Below, in pieces: positions 15,665 through 53,651 of a stretch of 64,000 nt of DNA. The position numbers and the translations under genes are program-made. Where the stretch lies: NCBI GenBank assembly GCA_017554615.1, contig JAFZHY010000022.1, forward strand, positions 1-64,000, written 5' to 3'. The DNA is from Clostridia bacterium (GTDB lineage Bacteria; Bacillota; Clostridia; UMGS1840; HGM11507). Below the pieces are notes generated by a model, which was not told the origin of the DNA, did not search any database, and saw only the letters and a list, made by a program, of their open reading frames with translations. Each line of letters opens with the position of its first letter. Position 1 is the stretch's first letter.

Positions 15665-15790
15665 TATAGTGATATGCTGACTTGGTCAGTGTCATATTTT
15701 ATTCACCTTAATAACTCGCAGAGCGAATATCACTTGACGTTAGTCAAATATCACTGCAAAGCAATATAACTCGCAACAATGCGAATAAAA
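15665..15790 (-). repeat. Array of mini-hairpins with AGTGATATT-type linkers (array 1)
   Basis: Read on the minus strand from the terminator of the parvulin gene, a series of short palindromes is joined by a conserved nine-base linker, AGTTTTATT, AGTTATATT or AGTGATATT. The palindromes are CGCATTGTTGCG, GCTTTGC, TTGACTAACGTCAA and TCGCTCTGCGA, with a further CTGAC/GTCAG pair beyond. The linker is conserved while the stems differ. Two more arrays of the same kind lie at 52901-52995 and 53543-53627. Function unknown. Confidence 0.7.
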
Positions 15791-15819
15791 CTGCCGAGTG
15801 ATCCAAAGAACACTCGGCA
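15785..15819 (-). terminator. Intrinsic terminator of the parvulin gene, joined to array 1
   Basis: TGCCGAGTG at 15792-15800 and CACTCGGCA at 15811-15819 form the stem; on the minus strand it is followed by GTTTTATT. The same nine-base arms recur in the terminator at 53622-53651. Confidence 0.8.
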
Positions 15820-15843: not shown

Positions 15844-16587
15844 TTAAAATTTATCAACAGGGAACATAATTTTAAGTTGATTTACTTTAGATTTATAAGC
15901 CGCCTGTTGTTTTTCTGTTGTAAGCTGAACAAAAATACTGTCTTTAACATCTTCAAAAGGAATTTTTGCTGCTTCGTTTTTAGAATTAAGTTTAATTATG
16001 TGATATCCGAACTGAGTTTTAACAGGGCCCAAAATTTCCCCAACGCTCATTGAGAATACAGCATTATCAAATTCAGGAACCATCTGTCCTTTTGTAAACT
16101 GGCCAAGGTTTCCGCCATTCTGAGAAGATGGGCAGGAACTGTTCGCTTTAGCACACTCTTCAAATGATATTTTTCCTGAGTTTATTTCTTCTAATAACTC
16201 TTTTGCTTTTTCTTCATCTTCAACAAGAATATGACTTGCAGAAACAGTTTCAGGATTTATCATTTTTTCTTTATTGTTTTCATAAAAATCTTTTACATCC
16301 TGTTCGGTAACTTTAACATTTTCTACTGCTTTTGTAATAGCAAAGTTTGCAAGTAAGTCTTCCTTTAATTTCTGAAGTTCTTCTTTGAATACAGGGTTAT
16401 ATTCATAGTTGTTTTTCATAGCATCAAGTAAGAAAAGTTTTCTTGATATGATTTGTTCTAAAATAATTTCTCTTCCCTGAGGGTTATCATAATCCTGACC
16501 TCTCTGGCCAAGCATTTTAAGCTCTGTATCAACATCCTGTGATGTAATAGGGGAGCCATTAACTTTTGCAAGTATTTTAATTTCCAT
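15844..16587 (-). CDS. PpiC-type (parvulin) peptidyl-prolyl isomerase, cytoplasmic
   Basis: The 247-residue protein has an N-terminal SurA/PrsA-like helical region (to about residue 115) and a parvulin domain from about 120 to 215 with the family segments ASHILV, SSQNGGNLGQF, MVPEFDNAVFSM and TQFGYHIIKL. It lacks a signal peptide and lipobox, unlike PrsA, so a cytoplasmic foldase role is likely. The ATG follows AAGGAGA. It is 29 bases downstream of the NifX-like gene on the same strand and ends at a strong terminator. Confidence 0.88.
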   Translation of the reverse strand: MEIKILAKVNGSPITSQDVDTELKMLGQRGQDYDNPQGREIILEQIISRKLFLLDAMKNNYEYNPVFKEELQKLKEDLLANFAITKAVENVKVTEQDVKDFYENNKEKMINPETVSASHILVEDEEKAKELLEEINSGKISFEECAKANSSCPSSQNGGNLGQFTKGQMVPEFDNAVFSMSVGEILGPVKTQFGYHIIKLNSKNEAAKIPFEDVKDSIFVQLTTEKQQAAYKSKVNQLKIMFPVDKF

Positions 16588-28332: not shown

Positions 28333-28504
28333 AATGAAATCGTTCACGTTGTTCACGATGAAATCCAAACAAGTTTGGATGAAATCAAAGCCTTTGGTCT
28401 TTGATGAAATTAAATCCGTCTTCAATATTCCGACTTTCGTCGGATTTCATCACGAAGTGATTTCATCTGCATTAGCAGATTTCTTTCGTCGAAAGACGGA
28501 TTTA
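28333..28504 (-). repeat. Array of mini-hairpins with GATTTCATC linkers (array 4)
   Basis: A chain of small palindromes is joined by ATGAAATC/GATTTCAT linkers. Those read on the plus strand include TCGTTCACG...CGTTCACGA-like repeats, TCCAAACAAGTTTGGA, TCAAAGCCTTTGGTCTTTGA, TCCGACTTTCGTCGGA, TCACGAAGTGA and TCTGCATTAGCAGA. TAAATCCGTCTT at 28411-28422 is exactly complementary to AAGACGGATTTA at 28493-28504, so the right half can close into a multibranched fold. It directly follows the terminator of tRNA-fMet as read on the minus strand. An open frame through it (28334-28588) is not a gene. Confidence 0.7.
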
Positions 28505-28506
28505 GT

Positions 28507-28544
28507 TAAAAAAAGCACCTGCAAAAATTGCAAGTGCTTTTTTT
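28507..28544. terminator. Intrinsic terminator of tRNA-Met, possibly bidirectional
   Basis: AAAAGCAC...GTGCTTTT with inner TGCAA/TTGCA pairing, flanked by A and T runs on both sides. It begins right after the tRNA 3' end on the minus strand. Confidence 0.85.
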
Positions 28545-28621
28545 TGGTTGCGGAGAGCGGATTTGAACCACTGACCTTCGGATTATGAGCCCGACGAGCT
28601 ACCAAGCTGCTCCACTCCGCG
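28545..28621 (-). tRNA. Initiator tRNA-Met (anticodon CAU)
   Basis: A 77-base cloverleaf on the minus strand with CCA encoded. It is an initiator because base 1 (C) cannot pair with base 72 (A) and the D stem has A11-U24. The anticodon loop is CTCATAA. The anticodon stem TCGGG/TCCGA has G29-C41 and G30-C40 but G31-U39, so the usual three G-C pairs of initiators are two plus a wobble. Confidence 0.92.
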
Positions 28622-52425: not shown

Positions 52426-52857
52426 ATGGCAATTAAACAACTTACAGTTTTCGTAGAAAATAAACAGGGTGCATTAGTTTCTATCACAGATATTCTTGCT
52501 TCTAATAATATCAATATCCGTGCATTATCCATTGCAGAAACTGAAAGTTTTGGTATATTAAGACTGATTGTTAATGACGAAAAGAATGCTAAAAAATTCT
52601 TAGAAGATGCAGGATATCTTATTAAGGAAACAGATGTTGTAGGCGTAAAAATTGGCGACGCTCCTGGTAAATTAACAGGCGCTCTTGATGTTTTGTATAA
52701 AGCAGGAATAAATATGGAATATCTCTATGCCTTTATGGCAAGAACTGAAAAACACGCTTATGTTGTTTTAAGGGTTAAAGATAATGATTTGGCAGAAAAA
52801 GCACTTGTTGATGCAGGTTATCATCTTATTACCGAAAGTGATATTTGTAAACTATAA
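52426..52857 (+). CDS. Double-ACT-domain protein
   Basis: The 143-residue protein is two ACT repeats: residues about 3-70 (VFVENKQGALVSITDILASNNINIRALS-like) and about 72-140 (GDAPGKLTGALDVLYKAGINMEYLYA). ACT domains bind amino acids; this family frequently follows paaK and probably senses an aromatic amino acid. A strong AGGAGG site precedes it. Because the pair is a unit, it may regulate the ligase allosterically (inference). Confidence 0.87.
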   Translation: MAIKQLTVFVENKQGALVSITDILASNNINIRALSIAETESFGILRLIVNDEKNAKKFLEDAGYLIKETDVVGVKIGDAPGKLTGALDVLYKAGINMEYLYAFMARTEKHAYVVLRVKDNDLAEKALVDAGYHLITESDICKL

Positions 52858-52870
52858 TATTAAATTTATT

Positions 52871-52898
52871 GAGGCACCATTCGTAAGAATGGTGCCTC
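52871..52898 (+). terminator. Intrinsic terminator of the paaK-ACT operon, joined to array 2
   Basis: GAGGCACCATTC at 52871-52882 pairs with GAATGGTGCCTC at 52887-52898 across four bases; AGTTATATT follows, which is also the first linker of the hairpin array. Confidence 0.8.
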
Positions 52899-52900
52899 AG

Positions 52901-52995
52901 TTATATTCGCCATATGGCGAGTGATATTGCTTTGCAGTGATATGAGTCTGCGACTCGTGATATATCGGCTACGCCGAGTTTTAGGCGAATATAAT
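52901..52995 (+). repeat. Array of mini-hairpins with AGTGATATT-type linkers (array 2)
   Basis: Following the terminator, linkers AGTTATATT, AGTGATATT, AGTGATAT and GTGATAT alternate with palindromes TCGCCATATGGCGA, TTGCTTTGCA, GAGTCTGCGACTC and TCGGCTACGCCGA. The outermost bases TTATATTCGCC (52901-52911) are exactly complementary to GGCGAATATAA (52984-52994), so the transcript could close into a multibranched fold. It shares the GCTTTGC unit with array 1. Confidence 0.72.
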
Positions 52996-53030
52996 ATTAC
53001 TTCAAGCAGTTGAAATAAGTTTTTTATATG

Positions 53031-53111: not shown

Positions 53112-53471
53112 TCACAATACTGTTTTAGATTTAATTGTTGTTAATGATGAAATTAACATTCTACGAATTGTTCCACATTCATTTCTCATTTTTTTGTATG
53201 TTTCTTCATTCATGCAATTTGTTTCAAAGAGAAGTTCTAACCAATATTCCGTTTCATAACATTCTTTTTGAGCAATTTCAAGTTTTGATATAAAATCTTT
53301 ATTACTTTGTGCATATTGACCTTCATGAAGATTTGCTCCTATTGATGTTGCAGACCGTAAAAGTTGATTTGCCAATATAGTTTCTTTCTGAGTTTTTTTA
53401 ATTTCTCTACATATATAAACTATATCTTTTGCAAATTGTTTTGCTTTATCTCTTAAAATACTATTTGCCAT
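53112..53471 (-). CDS. Four-helix-bundle protein (23S rRNA intervening-sequence protein family)
   Basis: The 119-residue protein has the family signature: a basic first helix (ILRDKAKQFAKDIV), NQLLRSATSIGANLHEGQYAQSNKDFISKLEIAQKECYE split over two helices, and a final basic helix. The S23/IVP family is found inside rRNA intervening sequences and also as stand-alone copies of unknown role; Avd of diversity-generating retroelements has the same fold. No rRNA or reverse transcriptase is nearby. The ATG at 53471 was taken because it follows GAGGTGGAG. It is the only gene between two hairpin arrays. Confidence 0.88.
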   Translation of the reverse strand: MANSILRDKAKQFAKDIVYICREIKKTQKETILANQLLRSATSIGANLHEGQYAQSNKDFISKLEIAQKECYETEYWLELLFETNCMNEETYKKMRNECGTIRRMLISSLTTIKSKTVL

Positions 53472-53542
53472 ATAACTCCACCTCAATAATTATTATAAAT
53501 TAGTTATATTGCTTTTTCAAGTAATAATTACAAACTATTAAA

Positions 53543-53627
53543 GAAAACAACTTGCGTATGCAAATACCACTTGCGAAGCAAATATCGCTTACATAGTAAA
53601 TATCACTTGACGATAGTCAAATAAAAC
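53543..53627 (-). repeat. Array of mini-hairpins with AGTGATATT-type linkers (array 3)
   Basis: On the minus strand, from the terminator of the fumarate reductase gene, the units are AGTTTTATT-TTGACTATCGTCAA, AGTGATATT-TTACTATGTAA, GCGATATT-TTGCTTCGCAA and AGTGGTATT-TTGCATACGCAA. The TTGAC unit is nearly identical to one in array 1 (loop TATC against TAAC), and the adjoining terminator arms are the same. Confidence 0.72.
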
Positions 53628-53651
53628 TGCCGAGTGTATTAACACTCGGCA
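53622..53651 (-). terminator. Intrinsic terminator of the fumarate reductase operon, joined to array 3
   Basis: TGCCGAGTGT at 53628-53637 pairs with ACACTCGGCA at 53642-53651; on the minus strand it runs into GTTTTATT. The arms match those of the parvulin-gene terminator at 15792-15819. Confidence 0.82.

Follow-up and report, generated by a model that had tools for sequence, protein, structure and literature searches.

Gut-1 hairpin arrays are incomplete copies of a dispersed repeat of gut Clostridia, with an S23/IVP protein as candidate partner

Hairpin arrays and neighbouring genes in the window

The window, i.e. the whole 64,000-nucleotide stretch of DNA that was analysed, is contig C22 of the source genome (G000; 1.278 Mb, 98.7% complete); G and L numbers hereafter designate genomes and loci of its relatives. 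Three arrays of short palindromes separated by AGTGATATT or close variants were found where a preliminary description had placed them, and a fourth, beside tRNA-Met, had escaped its count. Rfam 15 assigns the window arrays to the Gut-1 family (RF01706), two of the three scoring above the gathering score of 50 bits.

The first array (element 1, 15668-15819, minus strand) is a truncated copy of the GTGATAT linker type, identified from its sequence and from a Gut-1 match at 15722-15793(-) with 50.5 bits. Its left half comprises, on the minus strand, linker L1 (15784-15792), hairpin hp1, a linker (15763-15771), hp2 (15756-15762), a linker (15747-15755), hp3 (15735-15746), a linker (15726-15734) and hp4, followed by a centre (~15690-15712), the single remaining right-half hairpin (15677-15689) and an outer linker (15668-15676). 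The array opens on a cap hairpin, TGCCGAGTG/CACTCGGCA (15792-15819(-), arms 15792-15800/15811-15819), common to element 3 and to copies at C13:24955 and C13:70150, and a PPIC-type gene (15844-16587, minus strand) ends 25 bp from it.

Element 2 (52899-53001, plus strand) follows an ACT-domain gene (52426-52857, plus strand), its cap hairpin TGAGGCACCATTC/GAATGGTGCCTCA (52870-52899(+)), of a family also found at C5, C7 (two copies), C15 and C25, starting 13 bp past the gene end. Four left-half linkers (52899, 52920, 52936 and 52957) with hp1-hp4 are covered by a Gut-1 match at 52898-52968(+) with 63.5 bits. The centre GGCGAATATAA (52984-52994) is complementary to TTATATTCGCC (52901-52911), and one inverted linker (52993-53001) is present, without right-half hairpins. 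Element 3 (53543-53651, minus strand) has its cap at 53628-53651, L1 at 53620-53628, further linkers at 53599, 53581 and 53563 and a decayed right half; its Gut-1 match (53559-53629(-), 38.5 bits) stays under the gathering score. As had been reported, elements 1 and 3 share identical terminator arms, and their TTGAC-N4-GTCAA unit is identical as well. Elements 1 to 3 are thus all incomplete, being truncated or decayed copies.

Between arrays 2 and 3 lies a gene for a four-helix-bundle protein of the IVP/S23 family (53112-53471, minus strand; 119 aa from its ATG; PF05635, E=1.7e-29). A promoter-like arrangement (53492-53520, minus strand; TTGAAA at 53515-53520, 17 nt, TATAAT at 53492-53497) adjoins element 3 at its decayed side, reads into this gene and is also present in G004 (L289). 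Beyond the right end of many copies (L289, L298, L343-L352 and window 53492-53520), we observed an outward TTGNNA-17-TATAAT-like promoter or the motif GNCATCTAAA, as if the unit supplied a promoter-like sequence to the gene behind it.

Element 4 (28334-28507, minus strand), of the ATGAAAT type, combines a centre AAGACGGATTTA, a cap-side TAAATCCGTCTT, three right-half hairpins and a degenerate left half with a weak Gut-1 match (28439-28508(-)). Its cap/terminator hairpin (28508-28546, minus strand) comes directly after tRNA-Met (28545-28621, minus strand).

Anatomy and copy number of the repeat

These arrays are incomplete copies of a repeat of ~200 bases dispersed in this gut bacterium and its relatives. 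A full copy reads cap hairpin, L-hp1-L-hp2-L-hp3-L-hp4, centre, L'-hp5-L'-hp6-L'-hp7-L', where L' is the reverse complement of the linker L, and this well-supported plan was seen in five linker versions (GTGATAT, GTGAAAT, GCGATAT, TCGATAT and GCTAAAT), several of which occur together in G000. Hairpin sequences differ between units while base pairing is retained. The centre consists of inverted linker 1 and the 5' arm of hp1 (CGCC/GGCG, TTGCC/GGCAA, AAATCC/GGATTT): the hp1 arm matched its own centre over its whole length in 34 of 54 comparisons, against 419 of 2,456 for centres of elements with different arms, a contrast that is supporting only since the parser misplaces some L1. The linker-hairpin units of the preliminary description are therefore real, but they form two inverted halves (4+3 hairpins when complete) rather than an open tandem array, and the hairpin it had taken for an intrinsic terminator is the conserved first, or cap, hairpin of the repeat. 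That description had not included the inverted right half, the long-range inverted repeat, any other linker type or Rfam's Gut-1 entry.

We estimate the copy number in G000 at ~25-30. A search with RF01706 returned 30 matches at E<=0.001 in these 1.28 Mb, 12 of them above the gathering score, so that the arrays are not the few copies that would have spoken against a genome-wide family; plus-strand matches are often immediately followed by minus-strand ones because the element has two inverted halves. The window contains 51 occurrences of AGTGATATT with at most one mismatch (32.6 expected; 0 of 100 shuffles reach 51), and a two-linker pattern matched 19 times in G000 while its reversed control gave 0. 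A linker-blind scan for 6-mers with at least three copies separated by hairpins with perfect four-pair stems yielded 13 strand-merged words in G000, 10 of them linker words (TGATAT, TGAAAT, CGATAT, TCGATA and GCTAAA are included), and 0 in a Markov-1 genome.

The elements also create spurious open reading frames of 60-100 aa (L078 127-438 and similar), which gene prediction may report as hypothetical proteins. Separately, G000 carries at least two further dispersed repeat families, of ~280 bp (C2:70655-70933, C5:24374-24650, C23:68613-68889, the end of C27 and others) and ~150 bp (C4:72801, C13:106337/106722), with several copies at contig ends.

Stem pairing and loops

Pairing was assessed without bias on segments between exact linkers, taken without any stem criterion. 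The outer four positions were Watson-Crick paired in 98% of cases for GTGATAT, against 41% with 3' arms shuffled, and in 92% for TCGATAT, 90% for GTGAAAT, 89% for GCTAAAT, 81% for GCGATAT and 73% for ATGAAAT (shuffled range 31-42%). Among 22 complete elements, three or four Watson-Crick types occur at nearly every stem position, bearing out the earlier view that stem changes compensate each other. Pairing there reached 84-98% (29-48% when shuffled), values inflated because these elements were chosen by a stem criterion, and no general breakage of stems was found. With the same selection, the distinct stems comprise 1115 Watson-Crick, 7 G-U and 2 A-C pairs. RNA helices normally have several percent of G-U pairs.

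The loops follow a strict pattern. On the strand that reads ATATCAC they are C(GNA)G or C(GNNA)G, and TNC/TNNC on the other; along one and the same strand, left-half loops are C(TNC)G/C(TNNC)G and right-half loops C(GNA)G/C(GNNA)G. As the loop type switches between the halves of a single strand, the rule tracks the linker strand and not one transcript. Position 3 of the GNNA loops has no purine preference, unlike RNA GNRA loops, and mini-hairpins of the d(GCGAAGC) type are described as extraordinarily stable DNA hairpins (PMC10527192, PMC4686876). Taken together, the scarce G-U pairs, the linker-strand loop rule and the stability of such DNA mini-hairpins favour DNA hairpins or cruciforms, rather than RNA, as the selected form.

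These observations bear directly on the original proposal for Gut-1, a structured, self-expressed non-coding RNA, e.g. an array of hairpins that would bind and titrate a protein factor, a proposal which we regard as unlikely here. The family was put forward in 2010 on the basis of metagenomes of the human gut, as an RNA regarded as certain and as having no regulatory role, rated 'Y' for RNA (Weinberg et al. 2010, PMC2864571), its model matches the window, and promoter-like sequence precedes the cap in some types (L288, L115), which would yield element RNA, so that some RNA role may exist. Against it stand the 7 G-U among ~1,130 pairs, a loop rule that follows linker orientation with no fixed strand, GNNA loops lacking the purine preference, and the tens of dispersed copies, with several linker types per genome and many behind terminators, which would be unusual for one sRNA.

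Association with IVP/S23 genes

G000 has four PF05635 matches, three of which have an element directly upstream, each with another linker (GTGATAT on C22, TCGATAT on C18 and GCTAAAT on C13). At the level of the order, an element stands directly upstream at 16 of 21 IVP loci, its right end against the gene start (scored by eye, unblinded), and class-level loci add at least nine IVP genes with an upstream copy. With a strict detector (score >=4), elements were found upstream in 13 of 42 windows, downstream in 3 of 42 and in 0 of 840 shuffles. Where the preliminary description had called for a linker-binding factor, the PF05635 protein adjoining array 3 can now be named as a candidate.

The linker type changes in step with the IVP clade across genomes, which is well supported by sequence comparison. 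Mapped on a tree of 38 IVP proteins, the 10 linker labels can be explained by 9 changes, the smallest number possible (mean 25 after shuffling, none of 200 shuffles reaching 9), a congruence inflated by near-copies among the proteins and drawn from mostly metagenome-derived assemblies. The GTGATAT clade (support 98/97) unites the window protein with those of G003 and G004 and two proteins of G050, spanning three families, and every upstream element in this clade uses the GTGATAT linker. Instead of repeated co-adaptation, such congruence could also result if each clade had started from a single gene-array pair that was then inherited or transferred en bloc.

Genomes with the cognate IVP also contain more exact triple-linker arrays (one-sided Mann-Whitney p=0.0012; 9 genomes x 3 linkers = 27 cells, reversed-pattern control 0 everywhere). 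Counts were 6, 53, 34, 9, 130, 3, 10, 4 and 0 with a cognate IVP, and 12, 2, 1, 0, 0, 0, 9, 6, 1, 0, 0, 0, 3, 0, 0, 0, 0 and 0 without. G001, devoid of IVP, has zero such arrays; G008, G006 and G002 have arrays without a cognate IVP, and the GTGAAAT and GCGATAT copies of G000 have no cognate IVP in that genome. At the loci examined in deeper IVP clades, no such arrays were seen.

Solved IVP relatives (2RLD and 2GSC) were each deposited with five chains, and S23p of Xanthomonas has been described as a toroidal homopentamer (PMC4990558). In the literature searched, mostly freely readable papers, we found no link between S23/IVP genes and such arrays.

Other IVP clades follow tRNA genes, with the repeats TATTCAC (L303, L318, L328) or TTTTCTC (L319, L320). 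At these five loci an inverted copy of the terminator arm lies downstream, flanked by two runs of ~7-base repeats in inverted orientation and without hairpins (CTATTCAC.../...GTGAATAG), apparently the same plan minus the hairpins. Distant IVP/four-helix-bundle genes were also observed on plasmids (L338-L342; Monoglobus, Bernardetia, Nostoc, Euhalothece, Chlorohelix), often beside restriction-modification or DNA-methylase genes, the Monoglobus gene lying between HsdS and HsdR, which suggests another context for the IVP family. That the IVP genes examined on plasmids of other phyla have different gene surroundings counts against a general pairing with such arrays.

Genomic placement and spread

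Every G000 copy that was examined lies in an intergenic space flanked by protein, tRNA or tmRNA genes, and none is inside an rRNA gene. Of the GTGATAT copies tabulated in G000, 14/14 have their cap next to the 3' end of a gene (4/4 in the informative cases), and 10/14 occupy convergent gaps, against 43/302 background gaps. Orientation relative to genes is thus far from random for this type, and the uniform orientation previously proposed holds for it genome-wide; it fails for other types, e.g. the TCGATAT half-copies of the relative G003. GTGAAAT/ATGAAAT copies follow tRNA-Thr, tRNA-Cys and tRNA-Met, and one stands ~40 bp past the tmRNA gene.

Two copies, C7:490-640 and C7:1825-1970, lie 1.3 kb apart and agree from the start of the cap hairpin to ~22 nt beyond the final linker, outside which the sequences are unrelated; these near-identical copies with unrelated flanks support the idea that terminator and array travel as a copied module. 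G003 has GCTAAAT copies of 170-171 bp at a dozen sites; their caps are closely similar and their flanks differ. Near-identical copies amid unrelated flanks indicate recent spread. Sister species differ likewise: an element stands behind a tRNA gene in G003 (L272) and none behind its orthologue in G000 (C17:6212-6311), the positions in G003 that are orthologous to the two C7 sites are occupied by TCGATAT elements, and G003 has a GCGATAT element (L251) where element 2 follows the ACT-domain gene (52857) in G000. Two hallmarks of mobile elements are therefore observed, near-identical copies at unrelated sites and presence/absence between relatives. No consistent target-site duplication was found at the C7 pair; the G003 GCTAAAT copies have mostly TA at both boundaries, longer direct repeats there being explained by neighbouring copies. 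Composites of ~400 bp, with TCGATAT and GCTAAAT elements side by side, were also noted in G003 at no fewer than four unrelated sites, i.e. at least C36:17500-17920, C44:32680-33080, C5:7430-7840 and C9:50710-51120.

Two candidate contexts were rejected. Integron cassettes, considered for the clustered copies in C7 and C25, are ruled out by intervening genes that are ordinary, chromosomal and of mixed orientation, and a prophage element by the hp1 pattern, present in only 6 of 2.9 million viral contigs and in at least 116 genome stretches.

Placement likewise weighs on a regulatory reading, in which IVP would autoregulate through its upstream array and the dispersed copies would form a regulon or transcription fences at gene ends. 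IVP genes just behind an array with outward promoter-like sequence would fit it, as would the many G003 GCTAAAT copies upstream of genes, but we consider it improbable given that GTGATAT copies lie behind genes, mostly in convergent gaps, that orthologous sites in sister species hold different types, and that the near-identical copies in unrelated surroundings suggest a recent expansion. Highly unlikely are REP/REPIN or MITE palindromes mobilised in trans by a conventional transposase, RAYT (Y1) or another, with an incidental IVP link: inverted halves, extragenic sites, high copy number and a conserved hairpin foot do resemble BIME/REPIN as portrayed for REPs (PMC3733652), but the 98.7% complete G000 has no Y1/RAYT match (PF01797) at E<=0.001 (8/9 genomes of the order have matches, mostly weak), the linkers do not correspond to GTAG or CGTC tags, no such tag at the hairpin foot appearing among the words of the unsupervised 6-mer scan, and the linker type tracks the IVP clade.

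A proposed selfish repeat with a putative protein partner

We favour, with a probability of about 60%, a repeat family of animal-gut Clostridia whose copies are mostly gene-less and decaying and which is paired with a PF05635 protein, i.e. a selfish repeat with the linker as its putative recognition site. The IVP protein would recognise the repeated 7-9 base linker beside hairpins, as single-stranded or extruded DNA, and the inverted linkers would present the same ligand on both strands. An element together with its IVP gene would represent the gene-bearing form, gene-less copies being propagated in trans, and new copies would be tolerated above all downstream of genes, in convergent gaps or after tRNA and tmRNA genes, where they would do least harm. 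Copying could proceed through host recombination, replication slippage or an enzyme; the repeat unit itself contains no recombinase. Linker binding, mobility in trans and DNA as the active form are what we infer from sequence.

A bolder version of this selfish repeat is possible, with the odds somewhat against it: an element without recognisable recombinase, in which a pentameric IVP would read a clade-specific heptamer beside DNA-stable mini-hairpins, and the pair, alone or with host replication and repair enzymes, would spread the ~200-bp unit. The same principle would extend to the hairpin-less arrays that follow tRNA terminators and may account for the intervening sequences (IVS) of rRNA genes.

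With these results, the orphan 'ncRNA' Gut-1 of 2010 gains a full anatomy and a candidate partner, and the widespread S23/IVP family (PF05635), whose role is unclear, gains a testable candidate DNA ligand, with linker swaps as a built-in specificity control. Were mobility to be established, the repeat would stand apart from other small bacterial repeats as a kind of its own, widespread in gut Clostridia, where it would also give rise to spurious open reading frames and broken assemblies.

Comparison with known systems

Gut-1 (RF01706) shares with the repeat three consecutive hairpins on RTGAWAT linkers, the first hairpin reading UUCGCC..GGCGA. Its 77-nt model corresponds roughly to the left third of the repeat, without the cap, hp4, centre, inverted right half, other linker types and protein gene, and it was described from human gut metagenomes only, as a non-coding RNA.

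The IVS of 23S rRNA genes with an S23p/IVP reading frame, e.g. in Coxiella, are similarly small, carry a PF05635 frame and inverted repeats, and are regarded as selfish. In Coxiella, tandem heptamers lie just upstream of the S23p frame (PMC4990558), by analogy an independent hint of a protein-repeat pair. The family described here shares the PF05635 frame (53112-53471 and further loci) but not the rRNA-gene location: IVS sit inside rRNA genes and are excised by RNase III, whereas the present repeats are dispersed between genes, mostly without a reading frame, and form a 7-hairpin array.

In REP/BIME/REPIN-RAYT systems, too, palindromes lie in extragenic inverted pairs, and some copies adjoin the single-copy gene of a cognate protein. 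In contrast with REP/REPIN, here the hairpins vary freely while the linker is fixed, and the partner is not a Y1 transposase but a four-helix bundle for which no nuclease function is known. BOX elements of Streptococcus pneumoniae have a modular boxA-(boxB)n-boxC structure, with repeated hairpin modules between conserved ends. Compared by plan alone, they share the modular hairpins with our repeat, which differs from them in its fixed 4+3 plan, its inverted second half and its partner protein.
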